Source: Prauserella salsuginis (GTDB taxonomy: Bacteria > Actinomycetota > Actinomycetes > Mycobacteriales > Pseudonocardiaceae). From it: a stretch of 64,000 bases of DNA. The stretch lies in NCBI RefSeq assembly GCF_024648885.1, contig NZ_JANBBF010000012.1, positions 434,001 to 498,000 of the forward strand. The letters run 5' to 3'. The notes beneath the pieces are model-generated. The model searched no databases. It had not been told where the DNA came from and was given only the letters and a program-made list of their open reading frames with translations. The translations under genes were made by a program, and so were the position numbers. Below, piece after piece: positions 7,959-57,471 of this stretch. How positions within the stretch are numbered: the stretch's first letter is position 1; every line of letters starts with the position of its first letter.

Positions 7959-9368
7959 TCAGTGCCAGTCGAGGTTCCCCTCGATGCGTTCGCCCGCGAT
8001 CACCAGGTCGTCGAACGTCAGCTCCCGGACGTTCTCGAGCACCATCGGGGTGTCCGAGTCGGCAACCGTGATGTTGCGCAGTGTGACGTCCTGCAACGGC
8101 GCGTCCTCCGGCCCGTGGACCTCCAGGGTCGTCGCGGCGCTGTCGACCGTGAAGTCCTCGAACACCAGGTCGCGATAGACCGGCGGGAAGTCCCCGCCGA
8201 GCTCGCCGGGATAGTCCAGCTGGAACCAGATCAGGGTTTCGAAATCCTCGACCTCGAAGTCGCGGACGCGGATGTGCTCCACCGTTCCGCCGCGGTCGAG
8301 ATTGCCCTTGAACCGAATGGCCGACGCACCGGAACGCAACGTGTTGTCGTCGAAGAAGACGTACCGGATGTCGCCGGACATCTCACTGCCCAGCGCGATG
8401 CCGTCCTCACCGCCCATGTCGTTGTTCCGGACGACGACCCGTTCGCTCGGCCTGCCGATGTCCCTGCCGTCCTTGTCGCGACCCGACTTCACGACCACGG
8501 CATCGTCGCCGGTGCGGAACCGGTTCTTCTCGACCAGGACGTTCGTGCTCGAATCGACGTCGACGCCGTCGTTGTTGGCGTTGTGGCTGTCGACGGTCAG
8601 ATTCCGCACCGTGGCGTGATCGGTGTAGACGAGGTGATTGATCCAGAACGGCGAGTTGTTCACCGTGTAATCACTCAGCAGCACCCGCTCGGCGCCGAAG
8701 AACTGGATCATGCTCGGCCGCAGGAAGTGGCCTTCCCCGAAGCGGCGCTGCTCGAGCGGTTCCCCGTCGAATCCCATGCGCCGGAGCTTCTGCACGTCCT
8801 CGTCCTGCTTGTCGTACCAGGAGAGGAACTCACTCGCCTCGTTGCCGTCGATCACGCCCGTGCCCGTGATCGACACGTCGTGCACGTCCTTGGCGTAGAT
8901 GAGCGGCGAGTAGCCGTACATCTCGGTTCCTTCCCATCGCGTGTGCACCACGGGAAGGTAGTCGGCGGGATCGGCGCCGAACAGCAGCCGAGCCCCGTCG
9001 GAGACGTGTAGGTCGATCTTGCTTTCCAGGTGGATCGGGCCGTCGCTGAGCCAGGTGCCCTCGGGCAGGATGACTCGGCCGCCGCCGCTCTCATGGGCGG
9101 CGCGTACCGCCGACATGATCGCGTCGTGGTCGTCCGTCTTCCCGTCGCCGACGGCGCCGTACTCGGTCACCCGGAACTCACGGTCGGGAATGGACGGCTG
9201 TTCGACCGTGTCGACGATCCGGTCGGCCATGTTCCACAAGGGGTCCTTGCCTCCCTGGCCCTGTCCACCCGGTTCCGGTGCCGCGCCGGCAATGGAGCCG
9301 GCGCCGGCACACAGCAGGCCGGCCAGTGCCACGAGGAGTGCCTTCGCAGGTCGTGACCGCTGTTTCAT
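7959..9368 (-). CDS. Secreted GH28 polygalacturonase-family enzyme, second gene of the pectinase pair
   Basis: 469 residues with a signal peptide (LLVALAGLLCAGAGSIAGA). The right-handed parallel beta-helix begins at FRVTEYGAVGDGKTDDHDAI. GH28 signatures: NNDGVDVDSS (NTD-type Asp), RTGDDAVVVKSG (GDD Asp pair) and AIRFKG (in place of RIK). The usual GHG motif with catalytic-site His is replaced by GED in MGGEDGIALGSEMSG, so specificity or activity may differ from a standard polygalacturonase. Such enzymes hydrolyse galacturonan or rhamnogalacturonan chains outside the cell. It starts 39 bases after the upstream pectinase stop and both share the promoter near 10990. Confidence 0.88.
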   Translation of the reverse strand: MKQRSRPAKALLVALAGLLCAGAGSIAGAAPEPGGQGQGGKDPLWNMADRIVDTVEQPSIPDREFRVTEYGAVGDGKTDDHDAIMSAVRAAHESGGGRVILPEGTWLSDGPIHLESKIDLHVSDGARLLFGADPADYLPVVHTRWEGTEMYGYSPLIYAKDVHDVSITGTGVIDGNEASEFLSWYDKQDEDVQKLRRMGFDGEPLEQRRFGEGHFLRPSMIQFFGAERVLLSDYTVNNSPFWINHLVYTDHATVRNLTVDSHNANNDGVDVDSSTNVLVEKNRFRTGDDAVVVKSGRDKDGRDIGRPSERVVVRNNDMGGEDGIALGSEMSGDIRYVFFDDNTLRSGASAIRFKGNLDRGGTVEHIRVRDFEVEDFETLIWFQLDYPGELGGDFPPVYRDLVFEDFTVDSAATTLEVHGPEDAPLQDVTLRNITVADSDTPMVLENVRELTFDDLVIAGERIEGNLDWH

Positions 9369-9407
9369 CCGTTCTCCTCCGCAGTGAGTGGACGCCGTTG
9401 AACCCGG

Positions 9408-10859
9408 TCAACCCGAGGCACCGACGTCGATGACCTCGTCGTAGCGCTCGCCGTTGATCCCGACGTTCTCCAGGCGGAGATTCCGGACGTGTTCGAGTTC
9501 CATCGGAGTGTCGACGTCGGCGAACGTCGAATCGCGGATGGTCACATCGCTGATGGGGGACTGTTCGTAACCCAGCAGGTAGAGACCGAACGCACCACCG
9601 GTGCTGTGGACGTTCTCGATCCGGATGTCCCGAACCGTCGGCGTGTGTTCGCCGGCGTCACCCTCCTCGTACTGGAAGTTGATCCGGATGACCTCGCCGC
9701 CGATCTGCGGAATGTCGTTGTCACGGAAGTACACCTGTTCCACGGTGCCGCCCCGCACCGAGTTCGTCTTGATGCGCAGCGCGCGGTCCAGGTTCTCGCT
9801 GTCCATGACGTTGTCCTCGGCGAACACGTTGTACACGTCGCCGGACATCTCGCTGCCGATGGTCACGCCACCGTGCCCGTCGGCCATCGTGTTGTCGTGG
9901 ATCACGATGTTCTCGCTGGGTACGCCGATCCGGCGGCCGTCCTCGTTGCGTCCCGACTTGATCGCGATGCAGTCGTCGCCGTTGTCGAAACTCGAATTCT
10001 TGATCACGACGTTCTTGCTGGACTCGGGGTTCACGCCGTCGCTGTTGGGGCCGACCGGGCTGTCGAGGGTGACCCCGTCGACCGTGACGTTCTCCGACAG
10101 CACGGGGTGGATCATCCACATCGGAGAGTTGGTGAGCGTCACGTCCTCGACGAGGATGTTCTCGCTCTCGTAGAACTGGACGAAGTTCGGCCGGAGCTTG
10201 CTGTCCTCGAAACGGCGCTGCTCGACCGGCACGCCGTCGGCGGCCCACTGGAACAGCTGGTCACGGTGTTCGGTCTCGATGACTCCGCCGTCGCCGTTCG
10301 ACTCCTCCTTCCACGGCCACCAGTGCTCGTCGTCGGCCTGGCCGTCCAGCGTGCCGCCGCCGGTGATGGCGACGTCCTCCGCGCCGTGGGCGTAGATGAA
10401 GGGGGAGTAGTTGTACAGCTCTACGCCTTCCCAGCGGGTCTTGACCGCGGGCAGGTAGTCGTCGGGATCCTGGCTGAATCGCACCGTTGCGCCGTCGCTG
10501 ACGTGCAGTTCGATGTTGCTGCGCAGGTGGATCGCGCCGGTGTGGAACTCGCCCGCCGGGACGACGACCTTGCCGCCGCCCTGCTCGGCCGCGGCGTCGA
10601 TCGCGTCGGCGATCGCCTCGGTGCTGTCGGCCTGGCCGGTCGGGTCGGCGCCGTAGTCGGTGACGTCGAACGGGCGTTGCGGGATCCGGGGCGGCTTGAC
10701 TTCCTTGCGGATCTGGTCGGCCAGTTCCCAGCCGTGCGGCTCGGTCTGGCCGGGCGCCGTGTCCGGCGGGTCCGCCGTCGCGGCGGGGGTGAGGACGGAC
10801 ACCGCGAGCGCCGCGCCGAGCACGGCGGTCAGGGTGCGGGTGAGGACTGTTGACGACAT
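9408..10859 (-). CDS. Secreted GH28 polygalacturonase
   Basis: 483 residues from the ATG at 10859 (GAGGAGAACG precedes it); a longer frame to 10892 lacks support. The signal peptide ends near PAATA. The beta-helix domain starts FDVTDYGADPTGQADSTEAI and has the full GH28 set: NSDGVNPESS, NGDDCIAIKSG, GHGGVTIGSEMSG and ALRIKT, so all three Asp, the His and the Arg-Lys pair are present. Expected to release galacturonate or oligogalacturonides from pectin in the medium. First gene of a two-gene operon with the GH28 paralogue downstream; it lies behind a LacI-type palindrome at 10970-10983 and should be derepressed by a pectin breakdown product. Confidence 0.92.
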   Translation of the reverse strand: MSSTVLTRTLTAVLGAALAVSVLTPAATADPPDTAPGQTEPHGWELADQIRKEVKPPRIPQRPFDVTDYGADPTGQADSTEAIADAIDAAAEQGGGKVVVPAGEFHTGAIHLRSNIELHVSDGATVRFSQDPDDYLPAVKTRWEGVELYNYSPFIYAHGAEDVAITGGGTLDGQADDEHWWPWKEESNGDGGVIETEHRDQLFQWAADGVPVEQRRFEDSKLRPNFVQFYESENILVEDVTLTNSPMWMIHPVLSENVTVDGVTLDSPVGPNSDGVNPESSKNVVIKNSSFDNGDDCIAIKSGRNEDGRRIGVPSENIVIHDNTMADGHGGVTIGSEMSGDVYNVFAEDNVMDSENLDRALRIKTNSVRGGTVEQVYFRDNDIPQIGGEVIRINFQYEEGDAGEHTPTVRDIRIENVHSTGGAFGLYLLGYEQSPISDVTIRDSTFADVDTPMELEHVRNLRLENVGINGERYDEVIDVGASG

Positions 10860-10969
10860 GCGTTCTCCTCGCTGGTACTCGACGGTGAGCACGCTCGCTC
10901 CCGGGCCGCCTTCGGCGCGGGAGGGATTTCGCCGGGCTCCGGTCCGCTGACATCGCTTCCGGCACCCTG

Positions 10970-10983
10970 AGAAACCGGTTTCT
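10970..10983. promoter_or_regulatory. LacI-type operator of the pectinase operon
   Basis: AGAAACCGGTTTCT, a perfect 14-bp palindrome with the central CG typical of LacI/PurR operators. It directly follows the minus-strand -10 candidate at 10985-10990, so a bound repressor would block initiation. The same core recurs at 12366-12381 and, with one mismatch, at 11210-11221. Confidence 0.78.
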
Positions 10984-11209
10984 GATGGAACAGCAGCCTG
11001 ATTCAGGTGTCAATGGGAGAATTCGGCACGATGTGAACAACGTCGGCCGCGCGGGTTTTCCGGCTCGCCGCCGCTCCCGCGTCCGCGGGCCCGTTCGTGC
11101 TGCGGTTCCAGGGCCGGTTCCGGCTGGTTCTCGTCTGTCGGAAACACCAGTCGTGCGGACGTCTGCCGTTTGACGTGCGATAAGGTCGACAGAGTCGGTC
11201 AATATCGGC

Positions 11210-11221
11210 GAAACCGCTTTC
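11210..11221. promoter_or_regulatory. Imperfect LacI-type operator before lacI (autoregulation)
   Basis: GAAACCGCTTTC differs from the perfect sites by one base. It lies 56 bases before the lacI start, consistent with weaker autorepression. Confidence 0.55.
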
Positions 11222-11277
11222 TCCGGGGGCCCGGGTGGTGGTTGAGGATGTGGATGTCGAGGAAGGAAGGACGGCCC

Positions 11278-12282
11278 ATGGATCCGGGCGAGCGCACGCC
11301 GTCGGTCACCATCAGGGACGTCGCGCGGGCCGCACAGGTGTCGCCAGCGACGGTGTCACGGGTGATGAACCGCCGGAGCACGGTCGACGTGGAGCTGGCC
11401 CGCAGGGTGCAGCAGGCGGCCGCCTCTCTCGGCTATCACCCGAGTGCCGTCGCCCAGGGGCTGGCGCGAGGTCGGACCGAGTTGGTCTCGATCCTGGTGC
11501 CGGATCTCGGCAACCCGATGTTCCAGTCGGTGCTGCGCGGGATCAGCAGGGCGGCCGGGGTCGAGGGGTACCGCGTGCTGGTCACCGACAGCCACGAGAT
11601 GCCGCTCGAGGAACCGTTCCTGGCGCAGGAGACGCGGTTGCGCACCGACGGGTTGGTGCTCTGCTCACCCCGTTCGCACGACCAGGAGCTCCTGGAACTG
11701 GCGGGGAAACTCGAGCCGTTCGTCCTGGTCAACCGGCACGTCGAAGGTCTGCTCGCACCGATGGTCGCGGTGGACTACGCGGCCGGAATCCGCGCCCTCG
11801 TCGCTCATCTCGCCGGCCTCGGGCACCGGCACGTCGCGTATCTGTCCGGCCCGATGGCCAGTGTGTCGAACCAGGAGCGGCTCGACACACTGCACGCGTC
11901 GGCCGAGGGGCGTTTCGAGCTGACGGTCCTCGAATGCGGCTCGATGCACGAGGACGGCTACGAGGCGGCCGACCGGGCTCTCGGCACCGGAGCGACCGCG
12001 ATCATCGGCTACAACGATCTGGTGGCCCTCGGCGCGCTCGGCAAGTTCCATGCCATCGGGGTGTCGGTGCCGGACGAGGTCAGCGTGGTCGGGTTCGACG
12101 ACATCGCGTTCGCCCGCTACGCCTCGCCGATGCTGACCACGGTCGCCGTGCCGCAGGAAGCGCTCGGCGAGGAGGCCTGGCAGCGTCTGTCGGCCGTGCT
12201 GCGCGGGGAGGAACCGCCCGCCGACGTGTGTTTCACGCCGCGGCTGGAGGTCCGGCAGAGCACGGCCAGAGTCTCGCGCTGA
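11278..12282 (+). CDS. LacI family repressor of pectin/galacturonate genes
   Basis: 334 residues from the ATG at 11278, preceded by GGAAGGAAGG; the alternative ATG at 11254 is less well placed. The N-terminal HTH is VTIRDVARAAQVSPATVSRVMN (split here as residues 10-31) with a hinge helix HPSAVAQGLARG. Residues 60-330 form the periplasmic-binding-like effector domain, including VSVVGFDDIAFARYASP near the C-terminus. The effector is probably a uronate or aldarate from pectin breakdown, inferred from the neighbours: pectinases upstream, a TRAP transporter and uronate enzymes downstream, all behind the same palindrome. Likely local repressor. Confidence 0.92.
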   Translation: MDPGERTPSVTIRDVARAAQVSPATVSRVMNRRSTVDVELARRVQQAAASLGYHPSAVAQGLARGRTELVSILVPDLGNPMFQSVLRGISRAAGVEGYRVLVTDSHEMPLEEPFLAQETRLRTDGLVLCSPRSHDQELLELAGKLEPFVLVNRHVEGLLAPMVAVDYAAGIRALVAHLAGLGHRHVAYLSGPMASVSNQERLDTLHASAEGRFELTVLECGSMHEDGYEAADRALGTGATAIIGYNDLVALGALGKFHAIGVSVPDEVSVVGFDDIAFARYASPMLTTVAVPQEALGEEAWQRLSAVLRGEEPPADVCFTPRLEVRQSTARVSR

Positions 12283-49264: not shown

Positions 49265-49287
49265 TTGTCGGTGGGCACGCCTACCCT
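49265..49287 (+). promoter_or_regulatory. PafBC-type (RecA-NDp) DNA-damage promoter of uvrB
   Basis: TTGTCGGTG (49265-49273), 8 bases, then TACCCT (49282-49287) fits the published mycobacterial RecA-independent promoter consensus TTGTCRGTG-N8-TANNNT, which is controlled by PafBC. The -10 ends 7 bases before the GTG at 49295, giving a leaderless or nearly leaderless uvrB mRNA. Confidence 0.82.
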
Positions 49288-49294
49288 GGAGGGC

Positions 49295-51454
49295 GTGGCA
49301 TTCGCGACCGAACACCCCGTGCTGGCGCACTCCGAGTTCCGCCCTGTCTCCGACATCCCGCGCAAGGGTGGCCGGTTCGAGGTCGTCAGCGAGTACGAGC
49401 CCGCCGGTGACCAGCCGGCCGCGATCGAGGAACTGGACCGCAGGCTGACCGCGGGCGAGAAGGACGTGGTGCTGCTCGGCGCCACCGGTACGGGCAAGTC
49501 GGCGACCACGGCGTGGCTGGTGGAGCGAGTGCAGCGGCCGACGCTGGTGCTCCAGCCGAACAAGACGCTCGCCGCGCAAATGGCCAACGAGCTGCGGGAA
49601 CTGTTCCCGAACAACGCCGTCGAGTACTTCGTCAGCTACTACGACTACTACCAGCCCGAGGCGTACGTTCCGCAGACGGACACCTACATCGAGAAGGACT
49701 CGTCGATCAACGACGACGTCGAACGGCTGCGCCACTCGGCGACGATGAACCTGCTCTCGCGCCGCGACACGATCGTGGTGGCCAGTGTGTCCTGCATCTA
49801 CGGTCTCGGCACACCGCAGTCGTACCTCGACCGGTCGTCACGGTTGGCGGTCGGGGAGGAGGTCGACCGCGACGTGTTCCTGCGGGCGTTGGTCGACGTC
49901 CAGTACACGCGCAACGACCTGGCTTTCGCCCGCGGCACGTTCCGCGTACGCGGTGACACCGTCGAGATCATCCCCGCCTACGAGGAACTCGCGATCCGGG
50001 TCGAGTTCTTCGGCGACGAGATCGACAGCCTCTACTACCTGCACCCGCTGACCGGTGACATCGTCAGCGAGGTCGACGAGGTGCGCATCTTCCCGGCCAC
50101 GCACTACGTCGCAGGGCCCGAGCGGATGGAAAAGGCCGTGCACGCGATCGAGTCCGAACTCGAGGAGCGGCTGGCCGAGCTCGAGAAGCAGAACAAGCTC
50201 CTCGAGGCCCAGCGGCTGCGCATGCGCACGAGCTACGACATCGAGATGATGCGGCAGGTCGGATTCTGTTCCGGCATCGAGAATTACTCGCGCCACATCG
50301 ACGCCCGCGCGCCCGGATCGGCGCCGGCGACGCTGATCGACTACTTCCCCGAGGACTTCCTGCTCGTGATCGACGAGTCGCACCAGACGGTGCCGCAGAT
50401 CGGCGCGATGTTCGAAGGCGACATGTCCCGTAAACGCACGCTGGTCGACCACGGCTTCCGCCTGCCGAGCGCGCTCGACAACCGGCCCCTGACGTGGGAG
50501 GAGTTCGCCGACCGCATCGGCCAGACCGTGTACCTGTCGGCCACGCCCGGCCCGTACGAGATGGGCCAGGCGGGCGGCGAGTTCGTCGAGCAGGTCATCC
50601 GCCCGACCGGACTGGTCGACCCGGAGGTCGTCGTCAAGCCGACCGAGGGCCAGATCGACGACCTGGTGCACGAGATCCGCACCCGCGCCGAGAAGAACGA
50701 GCGGACACTGGTCACCACGCTCACGAAGAAGATGGCCGAGGACCTCACCGACTATCTGCTCGAACTGGGCATCCGCGTGCGTTACCTGCACTCCGAGGTC
50801 GACACGCTGCGCCGGGTCGAACTCCTGCGGCAACTGCGCTCCGGCGACTTCGACGTGCTCGTCGGCATCAATCTGCTGCGGGAGGGCCTCGACCTGCCCG
50901 AGGTGTCACTGGTGGCGATCCTCGACGCCGACAAGGAAGGTTTCCTGCGCAGCGGTACGTCCCTGGTTCAGACGATCGGCCGTGCGGCGCGGAACGTGTC
51001 CGGCCAGGTGCACATGTACGCCGACAGGGTCACCGACTCGATGCAGTACGCCATCGACGAGACGAACCGGCGACGCGAGAAGCAGGTCGCCTACAACACC
51101 GAGCGCGGTATCGACCCGCAGCCCCTGCGCAAGAAGATCGCCGACATCCTCGACCGCGTCTACACCGAGGCCGAGGACTCCGAGGAGGAGGTCGACGTCG
51201 GAGGGTCCGGCCGCAACGCCTCGCGCGGCAAGAAGCCGGAACAGGGCGACAAGGTGCGCAGCTCGGGCGTGCTCGTGGACCGCGAACCCAGTTCGATGCC
51301 CCGGGCCGAACTCGCCGACCTCATCCAGCAGATGACCGACCAGATGATGCAGGCCGCCCGCGACCTGCAGTTCGAGCTGGCGGCCCGGCTGCGTGACGAG
51401 ATCTCCGAGCTGAAGAAGGAGCTCCGCGGCATGGACGCCGCCGGCCAACAGTGA
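49295..51454 (+). CDS. uvrB: Excinuclease ABC subunit B
   Basis: 719 residues, nucleotide excision repair damage-loading helicase. Walker A GATGTGKS (62-69), the beta-hairpin [20 protein letters not shown] that inserts at the lesion, motif II VIDESH, motif [36 protein letters not shown], and the C-terminal UVR domain ([20 protein letters not shown]) that contacts UvrA and UvrC. The start at 49295 is supported because the in-frame GTG at 49265 lies inside the promoter. An acidic linker precedes the UVR motif. Ends in a hairpin at 51455. Confidence 0.97.
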
Positions 51455-52050: not shown

Positions 52051-53040
52051 TCAGCTGGTGACGTCCTTCGTGGCGAATCTGCGCGCGGCGAGAAGTCCGA
52101 ACACGGTGGCGAACAGCGTCGCCGACAGGGCGCCGGAGGCCATGCGGGTCCACTCGACGTCGGTGGCGATCAGGTCCATCCATGCGAACGAGAAGTGCGT
52201 CGGCAAGAAGTCCCGCAGATCGCCGAGCGCGGTGATCCGGTTGAGGATCTGCGACAGGATCGACACCAGCACCGCGCCGCCGACCGCGCCCAGCGGGGCG
52301 TCGGTCGAGACGCTCAGCAGCAGGGCCAGTCCCGCCACCCATGCCAGGTGGACGAGCAGGTAGGCCGTCGCCAGCGCGAGCGCGAGGAGGCTGTCCGGGA
52401 ACGGAATCGAGTCGCCCGTGGGGCTGACAGCCTCGCCCGTGCCGTACCAGATCGTCCCTGCGACGAGTGCCGACACCGGCAGGAGCGCGATCGTCAACGC
52501 CGACAGCAGCGCCGCCGCGACCGCCTTCTGCCGCAGCAGCCGGTGCCGGGGCACGGGAATGGCCAGCAGGTACTTGAGGCTGGACCACGAGGACTCGCTC
52601 GCGATCGTGTCGCCGAAGTACAGCGCCACGATCATCGGCAGCAGGAACGAGCCGGACACGAACAGTGCCACGACGACGAAGTTCGGGGCGCTGGCCGTGG
52701 CCAGGTCGATGAACCCGCCCGAGCGCGGGTTGGCCTCCGCCTCGCCGATCTCGAACGCCGCGACCAGGATGAACGGCAGCAGCATGACGAACGCCAGCAG
52801 CAGCTGGGTCCGCCGCCTGCGCAGCTGTCGCCGCAGTTCCACGCCGAGCCGGAGTGTCCGTGCTGCGCGGTAGCCGGTCACGGCCCCGTCCGGTCCGAGT
52901 CCCGTGGTCGGTTCGGCACCGGCCACGTCGGTGAGCTCGTCCAGTGCGGCGGGGTCGGTGTGCACGCCGTGTTGGTCCACGGCGTGCGGGTGCGCCTCGG
53001 TTCCCGCCGCGTCCGGTGCGGCGCGTTCGACGTCGCTCAT
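52051..53040 (-). CDS. ABC-2 type permease subunit
   Basis: 329 residues. An N-terminal cytosolic stretch of about 75 residues is followed by six membrane spans (LLLAFVMLLPFILVAAFEI; VVALFVSGSFLLPMIVALY; ALLSALTIALLPVSALVAG; LALATAYLLVHLAWVAGLA and others). SSWSSLKYLLAIPVPRHRLLRQK is the characteristic ABC-2 coupling segment after span 2. Its ATG overlaps the stop of the upstream hydrolase-ATPase fusion by one base, so it is the membrane partner of that ATPase. The transported substrate is unknown. Confidence 0.87.
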   Translation of the reverse strand: MSDVERAAPDAAGTEAHPHAVDQHGVHTDPAALDELTDVAGAEPTTGLGPDGAVTGYRAARTLRLGVELRRQLRRRRTQLLLAFVMLLPFILVAAFEIGEAEANPRSGGFIDLATASAPNFVVVALFVSGSFLLPMIVALYFGDTIASESSWSSLKYLLAIPVPRHRLLRQKAVAAALLSALTIALLPVSALVAGTIWYGTGEAVSPTGDSIPFPDSLLALALATAYLLVHLAWVAGLALLLSVSTDAPLGAVGGAVLVSILSQILNRITALGDLRDFLPTHFSFAWMDLIATDVEWTRMASGALSATLFATVFGLLAARRFATKDVTS

Positions 53041-56000
53041 CAGCCCTCACCTTCCCCGACGAGTTGCAGGAACGCGTCTTCGAGCCGGCGGCGTGGTCCT
53101 GCCTGTTCGACCGACACGTCGCCACGCACGAGCGTTGCGACGGCCGCACTGCGCGGCAGCTCGCCGAGGTCGGCGTGCACGAGGCCGTCGGTGATCTCCA
53201 CATCGGACACACCGTCGAGCCCGCGCAGGATCTCCGCGGCGCGTTCGGCGTCGTCCACGCGGAACGTCGCCTCGCCGCCCGCCGCGATGATGTCGTGGAC
53301 CCCACCGGAGGCGATCAGCCTGCCACGGTGCATCACCACCACATCCGTACACGTCTGCTCGACCTCGGCCAGCAGGTGACTGGACACCACGACCGTGCGG
53401 CCGGTCGCCGCATACCGGCGCAGCACCTCGCGCATCTGGTGGATCTGGGGCGGATCGAGGCCGTTGGTGGGCTCGTCGAGCACGAGCAGCTCCGGCAGCC
53501 CGAGCATCGCCTGTGCGATGGCGAGCCGCTGGCGCATGCCCTGGCTGTAGGTGCGGACCTTGCGGTGCACCGCATCGCCCAGGCCTGCGATCTCGAGCGC
53601 TTCGTCGATGTGGGCCTTGTCGGCGGGACGGCCGGTCGCCTGCCAGAAGAGTTCGAGATTCGCCGCTCCCGACAGATGCGGCAGGAATCCGGAGCCTTCG
53701 ACGAACGAGCCGATGCGCGACAGCACCGGGGCGCCCGGTGTGACGCGGTGGCCGAACACGCGGATCTCGCCCGCTGTCGGCGTGATCAGGCCCATCAACA
53801 TGCGCAGCGTCGTGGTCTTGCCTGCGCCGTTGGGCCCGAGCAGACCGAGGACCTGTCCGGGCTCGACCCGGAACGACAGGTCGCTGACGGCGGTCAGTCC
53901 GCCCGGGTAGGACTTCGTCAGGCCGGAGATCACCATCGGGGTGTCGGCCAGGTCCGGGTCGACCCGGTGCGAACGCCTGCGGCGGATCCTGCCGATCACG
54001 CCGACCAGTACCGCGAGGGCGAGCGCACCGCCGATGCCCGCGAGCTGGGCGACGGGCCAGCCGGACGTCGCCGTCGTCCCCGGGACCGCCGGTACCGACA
54101 GCTCGGCGGATCGCCCGAGCGCGATGCGGAATCCTGCGGGCTGGTCAGGTGTGTTGTACGACTGGTCCGTCGTGGTGATCACGAGTTGCAGTCGGTGGTC
54201 GGTCTCGACCGGCCGGACGATGCCGGGCAGGGTGACGGTCACGTCCGTCGGTGAACCGTCGGCGGCGAGGGGCACCCTGATGGGAGACACGGCGTTGCCC
54301 GGCAGGGTGCGGGTTCCGTCGGGGCCGACGTCGTACACCTTGGCGAACAGCACCGCCTCGGACGGGGTGAAGCCGCCGCCCTGCGCGTTCGCGCCGTTCC
54401 GGTCCGTCTCATCGGGGTCGGACCGGCCGCCTCCCGAACCGTTCCGCTCGGAGTCGCCGCCGTCCTGTGCGCGATCGCCGTTGCCGGCCCCACCGTCGTT
54501 GCCGGTACCGCCGTTGTCGCCGTTGCCGCCGGTGCCGTTGTCGCCGGAGGGTGAGGACCCCGGCATCGATGCGGGCTGCGGCGTGACGGACAGGCGCACG
54601 GTCGAGGCGCCCGTGACGAGCAGCTGCTCGGTCATGGGCCGCGAGGTGAACACGGCGGCCTGACCGGGCGGATCGATCGCGAACAGGCCCGACAGCTGGG
54701 ACGAGCCCGACACGATGCGGTTCAGCCCGGGGATGCCGCTCACCGACGCGGGCGTGCCGCCCGGCGGGCGGACGACGGTCTGGTCTTCGCCGACGAGGCG
54801 CACGGCTCGGCGCTGGACGTCACGGCCGTTGACGCCGGGGTAGGAGCCGGCTTCGACGTTGCGGACCGACGGGGCGCCGTCGGGCCGGATCGCACCGGTC
54901 ACGTCGTAGGAGAACGGGGCCGCGGGATCGTCGCCCTCGCCCGTCAGGTGATGCCAGAGGAAATCGGCCATCAGACCGCGGAGCTGCGAGCCGGGTCCGC
55001 CGCCGTCGTGGCCGCCCGCGTACCAGACGACCGACACCTCGCCTCCCGCATCGGCGATCTGGCGGGCGTTGGCGTCGGCCTGATCGAGACCGAACAAAGT
55101 GTCGTGCTCGCCCTGCACCAGCATCGTCGGCACGGTGATGTCGTCGGCGACGGACGCGGGGGAGACGCGGTGGAGCAGGTCGAGCGTCTCGGGCTCGGCG
55201 GCCCCGTCGGTGGCCACGTCGACGTAGGCCGCGCAGACCTCGGCGCTGAACCGGCCGCAGCCTCGGTCGCCGCCGTCGGTGTTCCCTCCGGAGCCGTCTT
55301 GTGGCCGGCCCGGATCGGGAGCCTGCCCCGTGCCGTTGCCCTGGCCCGGTGCTGCGGCCGCGTCGTCGCTGTCCCCGTCGTCGCCGGGTTCGACGGCGTC
55401 GGGTCCTGCGCCCGCTGTCGTAGACGGGGCTCCCGAGCCCGCCGAGAAGAGCGTGCCGATCCAGGACCGTTTGAGCACCCCGGTACCCGTGTCCGCGCCG
55501 GGCGCGGGGGTCGCGGTCGCGAGGTCGTCGTCGGTGGCGTTGTTCGGCAGCAGCGACTGCCGTAGATCGTTGTACGTGATCGCCGGTGCGATGGCGTCCA
55601 CGCGCGGGTCCGTGCCCGCCAGCAGCAGTGCCAGCGCACCGCCGTAGGAGGCACCGGTGACGCCGACACGGGGGTCGCCGTCGTCGTCGGAGACCACCTC
55701 GGGCATGCCGGCCAGGTGGTCGAGCAGCCGGGAGGCGTCGGCCACCTCGCGATCGGGAGCACCGAGTGAGATCGTGCCGGTGCTGTTGCCGAAACCGCGC
55801 GCGGACCAGGTCAGCACGACGAACCCGCGTTCGGCGAGCTCGCGGGCGTCGCGGGCGACGCTGTCCTTGTCACCGCCGAAACCGTGCGGCAGGAGCACGG
55901 CGGGTGCGGGCGTCTCCTCCGGCACGTAGACGGTGGTGTCGAGCTGCTCGCGGTCGGCCGAACCGGGCGAGGCCGCGACGTCGATCGTCGCGGCCTGCGT

Positions 56001-56129
56001 GCGGTAGGTGGGCGGTCGTTCGCCGTCACGGAACAGCAGGAGACCGCCGGCGGCGAGAAGCACGACGACGGCGGCCAATGCCGTCAGGCGTCGGCCGCGG
56101 CTGCGGAGAAGGCGGGACACGGTGCTCAC
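53040..56129 (-). CDS. Extracellular alpha/beta hydrolase fused through a membrane span to an ABC ATPase
   Basis: 1029 residues. TM1 at about 14-33. Residues about 60-690 form a CocE/X-Pro dipeptidyl-peptidase-like hydrolase: PHGFGGDKDS, nucleophile Ser 161 in GASYGG, Asp in GEHDTLFG and His in YAGGHDGGG, plus a jelly-roll-like C-terminal part and two low-complexity Gly/Asp/Asn inserts. TM2 at about 693-713, followed by RIRRRR (positive-inside). Residues 732-960 are a complete ABC ATPase: GPNGAGKTT (Lys 771), signature YSQGMRQRL, Walker B LLVLDEPTNGLDP and H-switch SSHLL. So an outside hydrolase is physically tied to a cytosolic ATPase, paired with the permease at 52051. Confidence 0.9.
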   Translation of the reverse strand: MSTVSRLLRSRGRRLTALAAVVVLLAAGGLLLFRDGERPPTYRTQAATIDVAASPGSADREQLDTTVYVPEETPAPAVLLPHGFGGDKDSVARDARELAERGFVVLTWSARGFGNSTGTISLGAPDREVADASRLLDHLAGMPEVVSDDDGDPRVGVTGASYGGALALLLAGTDPRVDAIAPAITYNDLRQSLLPNNATDDDLATATPAPGADTGTGVLKRSWIGTLFSAGSGAPSTTAGAGPDAVEPGDDGDSDDAAAAPGQGNGTGQAPDPGRPQDGSGGNTDGGDRGCGRFSAEVCAAYVDVATDGAAEPETLDLLHRVSPASVADDITVPTMLVQGEHDTLFGLDQADANARQIADAGGEVSVVWYAGGHDGGGPGSQLRGLMADFLWHHLTGEGDDPAAPFSYDVTGAIRPDGAPSVRNVEAGSYPGVNGRDVQRRAVRLVGEDQTVVRPPGGTPASVSGIPGLNRIVSGSSQLSGLFAIDPPGQAAVFTSRPMTEQLLVTGASTVRLSVTPQPASMPGSSPSGDNGTGGNGDNGGTGNDGGAGNGDRAQDGGDSERNGSGGGRSDPDETDRNGANAQGGGFTPSEAVLFAKVYDVGPDGTRTLPGNAVSPIRVPLAADGSPTDVTVTLPGIVRPVETDHRLQLVITTTDQSYNTPDQPAGFRIALGRSAELSVPAVPGTTATSGWPVAQLAGIGGALALAVLVGVIGRIRRRRSHRVDPDLADTPMVISGLTKSYPGGLTAVSDLSFRVEPGQVLGLLGPNGAGKTTTLRMLMGLITPTAGEIRVFGHRVTPGAPVLSRIGSFVEGSGFLPHLSGAANLELFWQATGRPADKAHIDEALEIAGLGDAVHRKVRTYSQGMRQRLAIAQAMLGLPELLVLDEPTNGLDPPQIHQMREVLRRYAATGRTVVVSSHLLAEVEQTCTDVVVMHRGRLIASGGVHDIIAAGGEATFRVDDAERAAEILRGLDGVSDVEITDGLVHADLGELPRSAAVATLVRGDVSVEQAGPRRRLEDAFLQLVGEGEG

Positions 56130-56439: not shown

Positions 56440-57471
56440 ATGTCCGTGCCGTTCTGGCTGTGGGCCGCCACCATCGGCGGCCTGATCGTGCTGCTCGTGA
56501 TCGACCTGGTGATCGTCGACCGCAAACCCCACGAGGTCACCACGGGTGAGGCGGCTCGCTGGGTGGTGTTCTACGTCTCCTGCGCCGTGGCGTTCGGCGT
56601 CGGGTTGTGGTTGTTGGCCGGGCACGGTCCCGGTGTCGAGTTCTTCACCGGTTACATCACCGAGTACTCGTTGTCGGTCGACAACCTGTTCATCTTCATG
56701 GTGATCATGTCGTCGTTCAAGGTCCCGGCGATCCATCAGCACCGGGTGCTGCTGATCGGCATCGTGATCGCGCTGGCCATGCGCAGCGTGTTCATCGCGA
56801 TCGGCGCGTGGGCGATCGCGCAGGTCGTGTGGATCTTCTTCCTGTTCGGCGGGTTCCTGATCTTCACCGCGATCAACATGGTGCGGCAGAAGGACGAGGA
56901 CGAGGAGTACCACGAGAACCTGGTCACGCGCCTGACCAGGAAGGCGTTCCGGGTGACCGACGACTACGAGGGGCACCACTCGATCGTCAAGCGCGATGGC
57001 AAGCGGTATCTGACGCCGATGGCACTCGTGATCGTCGCGATCGGTAGTGCGGACCTGCTCTTCGCGGTCGACTCCATCCCGGCGATCTTCGGGATCACGC
57101 AGGAGGCGTTCCTCGTCTTCACGGCCAACGCGTTCGCGCTGATGGGCTTGCGGCAGCTGTACTTCCTGCTCGGCGGCCTCGTCAGCAAACTCGTGTACCT
57201 GTCGCAGGGGTTGGCGATCATCCTGGCGTTCATCGGCGTGAAGCTCGTGCTCCACGCGCTGCACGAGTACCACGTCACGCCCGCGTGGCTGGAGATCAAC
57301 AACTGGATGTCCCTCGGTGTCATCGTCGTGGTGCTGACGGTGACGACCGTGGCGAGCCTCGCGAAGGCCAAGCGCGATCCGAGCGTGGTCGGCCAGTCGG
57401 GACTGAACCTCCATGCCGCGGCGCCGGAGGAGAAGTCCGCCGATCGTGCGGTGCCGGACGACGAGCGATGA
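56440..57471 (+). CDS. TerC family membrane protein, probable manganese exporter
   Basis: 343 residues with about nine membrane spans. TerC signatures: LLVIDLVIVDRKPHEV with acidic Asp in span 1, EYSLSVDNLFIFMVIMSSF (conserved Asp-Asn), and the mirrored IGSADLLFAVDSIPAIFGIT. The cytosolic loop RQKDEDEEYHENLVTRL is charged. Family members such as MeeF/Alx/TerC export Mn2+ or metallate secreted enzymes. The Mn2+ riboswitch in front supports manganese efflux. ATG at 56440 with a perfect CCGGAGG site. The last codons are part of a 15-bp duplication. Confidence 0.92.
   Translation: MSVPFWLWAATIGGLIVLLVIDLVIVDRKPHEVTTGEAARWVVFYVSCAVAFGVGLWLLAGHGPGVEFFTGYITEYSLSVDNLFIFMVIMSSFKVPAIHQHRVLLIGIVIALAMRSVFIAIGAWAIAQVVWIFFLFGGFLIFTAINMVRQKDEDEEYHENLVTRLTRKAFRVTDDYEGHHSIVKRDGKRYLTPMALVIVAIGSADLLFAVDSIPAIFGITQEAFLVFTANAFALMGLRQLYFLLGGLVSKLVYLSQGLAIILAFIGVKLVLHALHEYHVTPAWLEINNWMSLGVIVVVLTVTTVASLAKAKRDPSVVGQSGLNLHAAAPEEKSADRAVPDDER

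Follow-up and report, generated by a model that had tools for sequence, protein, structure and literature searches.

We describe a two-gene system in a 64,000-nucleotide stretch of the Prauserella salsuginis genome (contig NZ_JANBBF010000012.1, positions 434,001 to 498,000; hereafter the window), in which an alpha/beta hydrolase and an ATP-binding cassette (ABC) ATPase are carried on one polypeptide and the next gene encodes an ABC-2 permease. The minus-strand segment 56129-53040 is a single uninterrupted frame of 1029 amino acids, with a GTG start and a TGA stop at 53042-53040, and the same fused architecture recurs across actinomycetes, which bears out the single polypeptide proposed by a first-pass annotation that had left the strand unstated. 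The permease which that annotation assigned to the next gene exceeds two ABC-2 Pfam cut-offs (PF12730 at 35.1 bits, PF12679 at 30.5 bits), overlaps the fused gene by one base and has an adjoining homologue in all of the family regions described below. We propose that a NosFY-like motor brings a membrane-held ester to the hydrolase tethered to it, or else gates that enzyme, a reading that we consider plausible and somewhat short of probable.

A fused frame across many actinomycetes

Two Pfam domains score above their cut-offs in the fused protein, Peptidase_S15 (PF02129) at residues 62-198 and ABC_tran (PF00005) at residues 749-889. The C-terminal beta-sandwich of S15, CocE and PaL hydrolases is also present, as model strands across residues 406-681. 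Its PepX_C domain (PF08530) reaches 21.1 bits in the full protein, against a cut-off of 22.5 bits, and 22.6 bits in the trimmed hydrolase, and it is detected at E ≤ 0.001 in 25 of 28 members. A smaller alignment, A2, took 28 of the 38 rows of the family alignment A1. A hydropathy scan places one membrane span at the N-terminus and another between hydrolase and ATPase, and helices at residues 9-34 and 693-720 of an AlphaFold2 model (38 sequences; mean predicted local distance difference test, pLDDT, of 81.9; low-confidence segments including residues 253-288 and 525-583) agree with both spans of the earlier annotation.

The hydrolase part was matched in 116 of 120 family genomes and 44 of 46 genera, at a cut-off of 1e-30 and with the window's own genome included. 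The four genomes lacking a match at this cut-off (G037, G071, G040 and G074) belong to two genera, two genomes each, and apparently reflect lineage losses. Among the matches listed, open frames are at least 882 amino acids long, except for two in fragmented assemblies (525 in G061 and 659 in G011). ABC sequence in the hydrolase frame, together with an adjoining permease homologue, is found in 40/40 family regions from 39 genomes, all picked among places already matched by the hydrolase search; three of them (L044, L065 and L071), where the frame used has a disturbed or truncated ABC part, count toward the 40 and are excluded from A1.

A pattern-based scan of species genomes returned at least 206 relatives, from which we kept 80 named loci. 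These come from several actinomycete orders, with genera that include Amycolatopsis, Saccharothrix, Pseudonocardia, Rhodococcus, Nakamurella, Geodermatophilus, Blastococcus, Micromonospora, Salinispora, Streptomyces and Microbispora, among others. The two parts are fused in 77 of the 80, with no split form seen among them, and the remaining three (L124, L126 and L160) stop at contig edges. A permease was found for 76 of the 77, the exception (L128) being a contig end, and one locus (L164) has a disturbed ABC frame. The domain order whose spread the annotation had asked about appears near-universal in the sampled Pseudonocardiaceae and is present in several other actinomycete orders. Profile searches matched 167/200 genomes in the order (1e-20), 83/246 in the class (1e-30) and 74/346 in the phylum (1e-20), counts that mix fused and unfused relatives, with most genomes in the class and phylum searches having no match. 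Distant phylum members (L201-L205) carry fused copies as well, and the fused operon with a full triad is found in two genomes that are single contigs of 1.34 and 1.35 Mb, each 99% complete (L207/L208; G649, G679); its retention in such genomes suggests a basic envelope role. Some genomes hold two fused copies (for example, L045 and L076 in G032). In a public Tsukamurella plasmid record, one annotated gene covers both hydrolase and ATPase, and the protein is labelled only 'alpha/beta fold hydrolase', so that annotation hides its domains.

In a FastTree phylogeny of hydrolase domains, 44 fused and 17 unfused sequences separate with a local support of 1.0, from which we infer one fusion event; the sequences would thus fit a single old fusion, followed by some likely transfers. 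The clades broadly track taxonomy, and one locus with no match (L002) is absent from the tree. The Microbispora and Nakamurella loci L121 and L131 are placed inside the Pseudonocardiaceae part of the tree, and the plasmid-borne Tsukamurella copy (L184) beside Streptomyces and Nonomuraea; these placements outside their own orders are likely horizontal transfers.

Unfused relatives, all from Actinomycetota, were fetched as 23 regions (L186-L200, L206, L217-L223), with stop-to-stop frames of 599 to 1700 amino acids and a hydrophobic stretch ahead of the hydrolase in 20 of the 23. They share the hydrolase family and a nearly always intact triad with the fused protein, but in none of the 23 does the hydrolase frame contain ABC sequence, and none has a permease match nearby. 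Generic ABC matches lie elsewhere in two of the regions (L193 and L200), and the missing ATPase of L191, which reaches a contig edge, is uninformative. Four frames (L190, L192, L217 and L220) have a membrane span at their end and no ATPase, and possibly picture the pre-fusion state.

Active sites, topology and motor class

Ser161 is present in 38/38 rows of A1 and Asp343 in 36/38. In a larger conservation set of 163 rows (157 distinct, with six identical pairs), where triad residues were assigned from motif and alignment, the 137 fused rows (131 distinct) contain Ser in 137, Asp in 134 and His in 131, with a full triad in 131 and both Cys291 and Cys299 in all 137. The other 26 rows, without ABC sequence, contain Ser in 26, Asp in 26, His in 25 and each of the two cysteines in 22. 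Three of the 26 (L124, L126 and L160) are fragments at contig ends that probably belong to fused genes, which leaves 23 unfused rows. Six fused rows (five distinct) keep Ser and have lost His, three of them Asp as well: L060, L061, L066 (identical to L119, from Halosaccharopolyspora lacisalsi), L067 and L137 (Actinopolyspora mzabensis). Halosaccharopolyspora and Actinopolyspora are halophiles. Four triad-deficient rows group in the tree with L059 and L072, both triad-intact (the His of L059 is absent on A1 and present after realignment), and the four in A1 retain the main ATPase motifs and the permease. A lost triad beside a retained motor means that the hydrolase can turn into a probable binding domain, and this subclade may be a natural pseudo-hydrolase version of the system.

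The first Foldseek match of the hydrolase in the Protein Data Bank (PDB) is the PaL lipase 8yzo, with an E-value of 1.2e-26 and a template modeling (TM) score of 0.75 on the target, and CocE ranks lower (TM 0.63-0.65 on the target). PaL (8yzn and 8yzo, TM 0.74-0.75) and CocE/S15 proteins share the combination of alpha/beta hydrolase and beta-sandwich, but their solved chains are 505-574 residues long, lack an ABC ATPase and are 13-17% identical in the structural alignments. PaL also matched the sequence profile across the catalytic half and, weakly, the sandwich, and PHROGs returned generic esterase families only. From the CocE-like hydrolase with an intact Ser-Asp-His set that the first-pass annotation described, the triad stands, with all three codons located, whereas PaL replaces CocE as the best structural match. 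Because this match is a lipase, we reject the label 'X-Pro peptidase' except as the name of a fold family.

The ATPase is intact, as had been claimed: Walker A, signature, Walker B with its catalytic Glu, and H-loop are conserved, and PF00005 lies above cut-off. Within A1, Lys771, Gly864, Asp885 and Glu886 are each present in 38/38 rows and His918 in 37/38. The signature reads YSQGMRQR rather than LSGGQ, and a Glu occupies the Q-loop place, a position assigned by our own reading. In L059, the H-loop His is replaced by Arg and the hydrolase triad is kept. Named ABC families of NCBIfam (the best 25 of 202) all score below cut-off, with DrrA at the top (179.5 bits against 312.45) and lantibiotic protection and NodI among the others. 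Structural matches to the ATPase model are TM_1403, NosF (7o14, TM 0.80 on the target) and ABCA proteins. For the permease model (pLDDT 85.2), the first ten rows are chains of NosDFY-type complexes (7o0y_E, TM 0.67 on the target), followed by PmtCD and KpsMT. With 329 amino acids, ABC-2 Pfam matches and a NosDFY-like model, the permease does not belong to the type VII mechanotransmission class (MacB, FtsEX, YbbAP). We also rejected a defence-system reading, as all PADLOC matches fall within the ATPase part (the best being mad3 at 92.5 bits) and the permease has none.

Of the 131 distinct fused proteins, 130 carry more Lys and Arg behind span 2 than ahead of it, and in 130 span 2 attains the hydropathy threshold. 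This charge bias would place the hydrolase outside and the ATPase inside, with both ends of the chain in the cytoplasm. The linkers around span 2 are tight: the 5-95% limits are 19-21 residues from sandwich to span and 15-23 from span to ATPase (median 16), in comparison to 26-82 for the cap insert. Such conserved lengths fit an enzyme that may be held near the membrane face, and they fit coupling. Span 1 is anchor-like in the window protein, but in L056, L068 and L069, with N-termini read by eye, it resembles a cleavable signal peptide, and span 1 may therefore not matter for coupling.

Features of the operon, with coordinates in the window and the evidence for each
Feature	Coordinates	Strand	Basis
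Fused gene: span 1, alpha/beta hydrolase, beta-sandwich, span 2, ABC ATPase	53040..56129	-	translation, Pfam, model
Span 1, residues 9-34 (signal anchor)	56028..56105	-	AlphaFold2 helix and hydropathy
Alpha/beta hydrolase core, residues 42-396	54942..56006	-	Pfam S15, PaL/CocE fold match, codons
Ser161 codon	55647-55649	-	direct codon check
Asp343 codon	55101-55103	-	direct codon check
His374 codon	55008-55010	-	direct codon check
Beta-sandwich (PepX_C-like), residues 406-681	54087..54914	-	model strands; PF08530 near cut-off
Gly/Asp/Asn-rich low-complexity insert, residues 525-583	54381..54557	-	pLDDT <50, tandem repeats, composition
Span 2, residues 693-720, then basic stretch	53970..54053	-	hydropathy, model helix, charge count
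ABC ATPase core, residues 731-950	53280..53939	-	PF00005, conservation, codons
Walker A Lys771 codon	53817-53819	-	direct codon check
Glu886 codon	53472-53474	-	direct codon check
His918 codon	53376-53378	-	direct codon check
ABC-2 permease, 329 amino acids, ATG overlapping the fused-gene stop by one base	52051..53040	-	PF12730, PF12679, NosY-like model

The tandem repeats of the beta-sandwich insert are short. The segment around it, residues 507-593, is 87 residues long in the window protein, 96 in L074 and 52 in L075, with a median of 21, and the long insert is a low-complexity expansion specific to the lineage.

The operon is flanked by a UvrB gene (49265-51454, plus strand) and a TerC gene (56440-57471, plus strand). 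In the fetched flanks of 45 chosen loci, terC neighbours the operon in 22 and uvrB in 15, these cluster names being taken from the window's genes, and the uvrB neighbourhood is seen from Pseudonocardiaceae to Rhodococcus and Nakamurella. A promoter and terminator scan, itself uninformative, gave no promoter-like site directly 5' of the operon. In L068, a related ATPase and permease pair, here unfused, lies close to the fused operon (8096-11415, plus strand) and is possibly a relative of the motor half, and L125 and L138 hold ATPase and permease matches like those of this pair.

Proposed coupling and its alternatives

In the mechanism that we propose, two fused proteins and two NosY-like permeases would form a two-gene envelope machine, for which we infer a 2:2 stoichiometry. 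The two permease copies would make up the membrane core, and the fused copies would contribute a pair of ATPases inside and a pair of lipase- or esterase-like hydrolases outside, each hydrolase tied to its ATPase through one short membrane helix. ATP binding and hydrolysis would move the permease core and thereby pull a hydrophobic compound bearing an ester or amide, probably lipid-like, out of the membrane, or flip it to the outer side, and offer it to the tethered enzyme; alternatively, the movement of the core would open the hydrolase. The hydrolase would then cleave the compound. The mechanical link between hydrolysis and transport that the first-pass annotation envisaged would be compatible with the span 2 linkers, which do not prove it. 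A broader claim is that the family forms a class of envelope enzyme machines, with a NosFY-type motor whose ATPase chains each bear an outside hydrolase, with ATP turnover and cleavage of an ester (probably a lipid) coupled both covalently and mechanically, and with one subclade in which the enzyme became a binding module; taken as a whole, we regard this claim as doubtful.

Several observations weigh against a coupled motor and hydrolase. The model's predicted TM (pTM) score of 0.64 makes the relative placement of the domains uncertain. Net charge is higher behind span 2 than ahead of it in only 106/131 proteins, and the conserved linker lengths may reflect descent only. The triad has been lost where the motor is kept, and catalysis is therefore not always needed. 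ABC-2 proteins are usually exporters. In the permease comparison, only the first row has an E-value below 0.001 and a profile search of PDB sequences reaches NosY at an E-value of 0.2, so that the likeness to NosY rests on fold. No third conserved gene hints at a substrate, the commonest real neighbour in the chosen loci being terC.

The same evidence bears on other explanations. The ABC-2 pair might export a soluble or peptide-like compound from which the tethered hydrolase strips a protecting group or leader on emergence, in which case the fusion would keep the enzyme at the exit. The best NCBIfam scores of the ATPase, below their cut-offs, are those of exporter families (DrrA, lantibiotic protection), the permease model is also similar to PmtCD and KpsMT, and the fold family of the hydrolase includes S15 peptidases. 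However, the UvrB/TerC setting and the presence in 116/120 family genomes are more in keeping with a general function than with one tied to a gene cluster (no search for gene clusters was made), and we consider such an exporter unlikely. The hydrolase could also act on its own as a surface esterase for which the ATPase chain is an anchor, with no functional link between the two. Relatives without an ATPase exist, and the four frames that end in a span alone indicate that anchoring is useful by itself; the lack of a split form among the 77 fused loci and the tight linkers oppose this account, which strikes us as improbable.

A role as receptor or sensor appears more improbable still. Here the hydrolase fold would mainly bind a ligand outside and signal through, or regulate, the transporter, with catalysis ancestral and dispensable. 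The six fused rows that keep Ser and lack His speak for such a role, but the triad is intact in the other 131 of 137. The chance that the gene is an artefact, whether an assembly fusion, a sequencing error or an untranslated junction, is negligible. The window offers no support for it, disturbed ABC frames being seen at a few other loci (L044, L065, L071 and L164), and the same junction appears in many independent assemblies and within the annotated Tsukamurella plasmid gene. We accordingly rejected assembly fusion and read error, as the sampled fused members are also monophyletic; the homologues, which by the annotation's own account could have turned out to be always separate, are fused in every fetched family region and in 77 of the 80 named loci, and the sampled fused members form one clade.

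Relation to known systems

The NosDFY complex (7o0y, 7o14, 7o17) gives the top structural match of the permease and is among the top ATPase matches. Its outside partner, NosD, is a protein in its own right rather than a fused domain, and it is not a hydrolase; NosDFY serves the maturation of nitrous oxide reductase. ABC exporters that contain a C39 peptidase do carry a hydrolase and an ATPase on one chain; their peptidase, however, is cytoplasmic and of another fold, and no C39 domain is among the Pfam matches of the window protein.

Among the titles and abstract openings listed by our searches of open PubMed Central papers, none describes a hydrolase joined to an ABC ATPase in one chain. Section 2.9 of a classification of alpha/beta hydrolases (PMC11878206) names no ABC fusion, and PMC6629963 is unrelated. 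A conserved, fused actinobacterial membrane protein has apparently gone unstudied. Since the hydrolase is present in 116 of the 120 family genomes, simple actinomycete mutants could test the coupling.

The first-pass annotation knew of no characterized system of this type. For the fused architecture, nothing in the literature just described contradicts this statement, but the concept has a precedent in YbbAP-TesA of E. coli, an ABC complex with a periplasmic serine esterase (PMC12646458). The authors propose that ATP drives the extraction of hydrophobic molecules, which are handed to TesA for hydrolysis outside, and state that extraction itself awaits confirmation (PMC12646458). Like our proposed machine, YbbAP-TesA has a serine esterase at the outer face of an ABC complex, which makes it a precedent in function. 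As described there, it is built from separate proteins in a 2:1:1 complex, with a type VII permease that has large periplasmic domains and an esterase of the GDSL family. The window system instead combines an ABC-2 permease with an alpha/beta hydrolase of the S15/PaL kind (PF02129-like) that is fused to the ATPase. Because permease class, hydrolase family and covalent linkage all differ, the window system is not a member of the YbbAP-TesA system; if the coupling is real, it would join YbbAP-TesA as a second ABC-hydrolase machine, one assembled from different parts and hard-wired in one chain.

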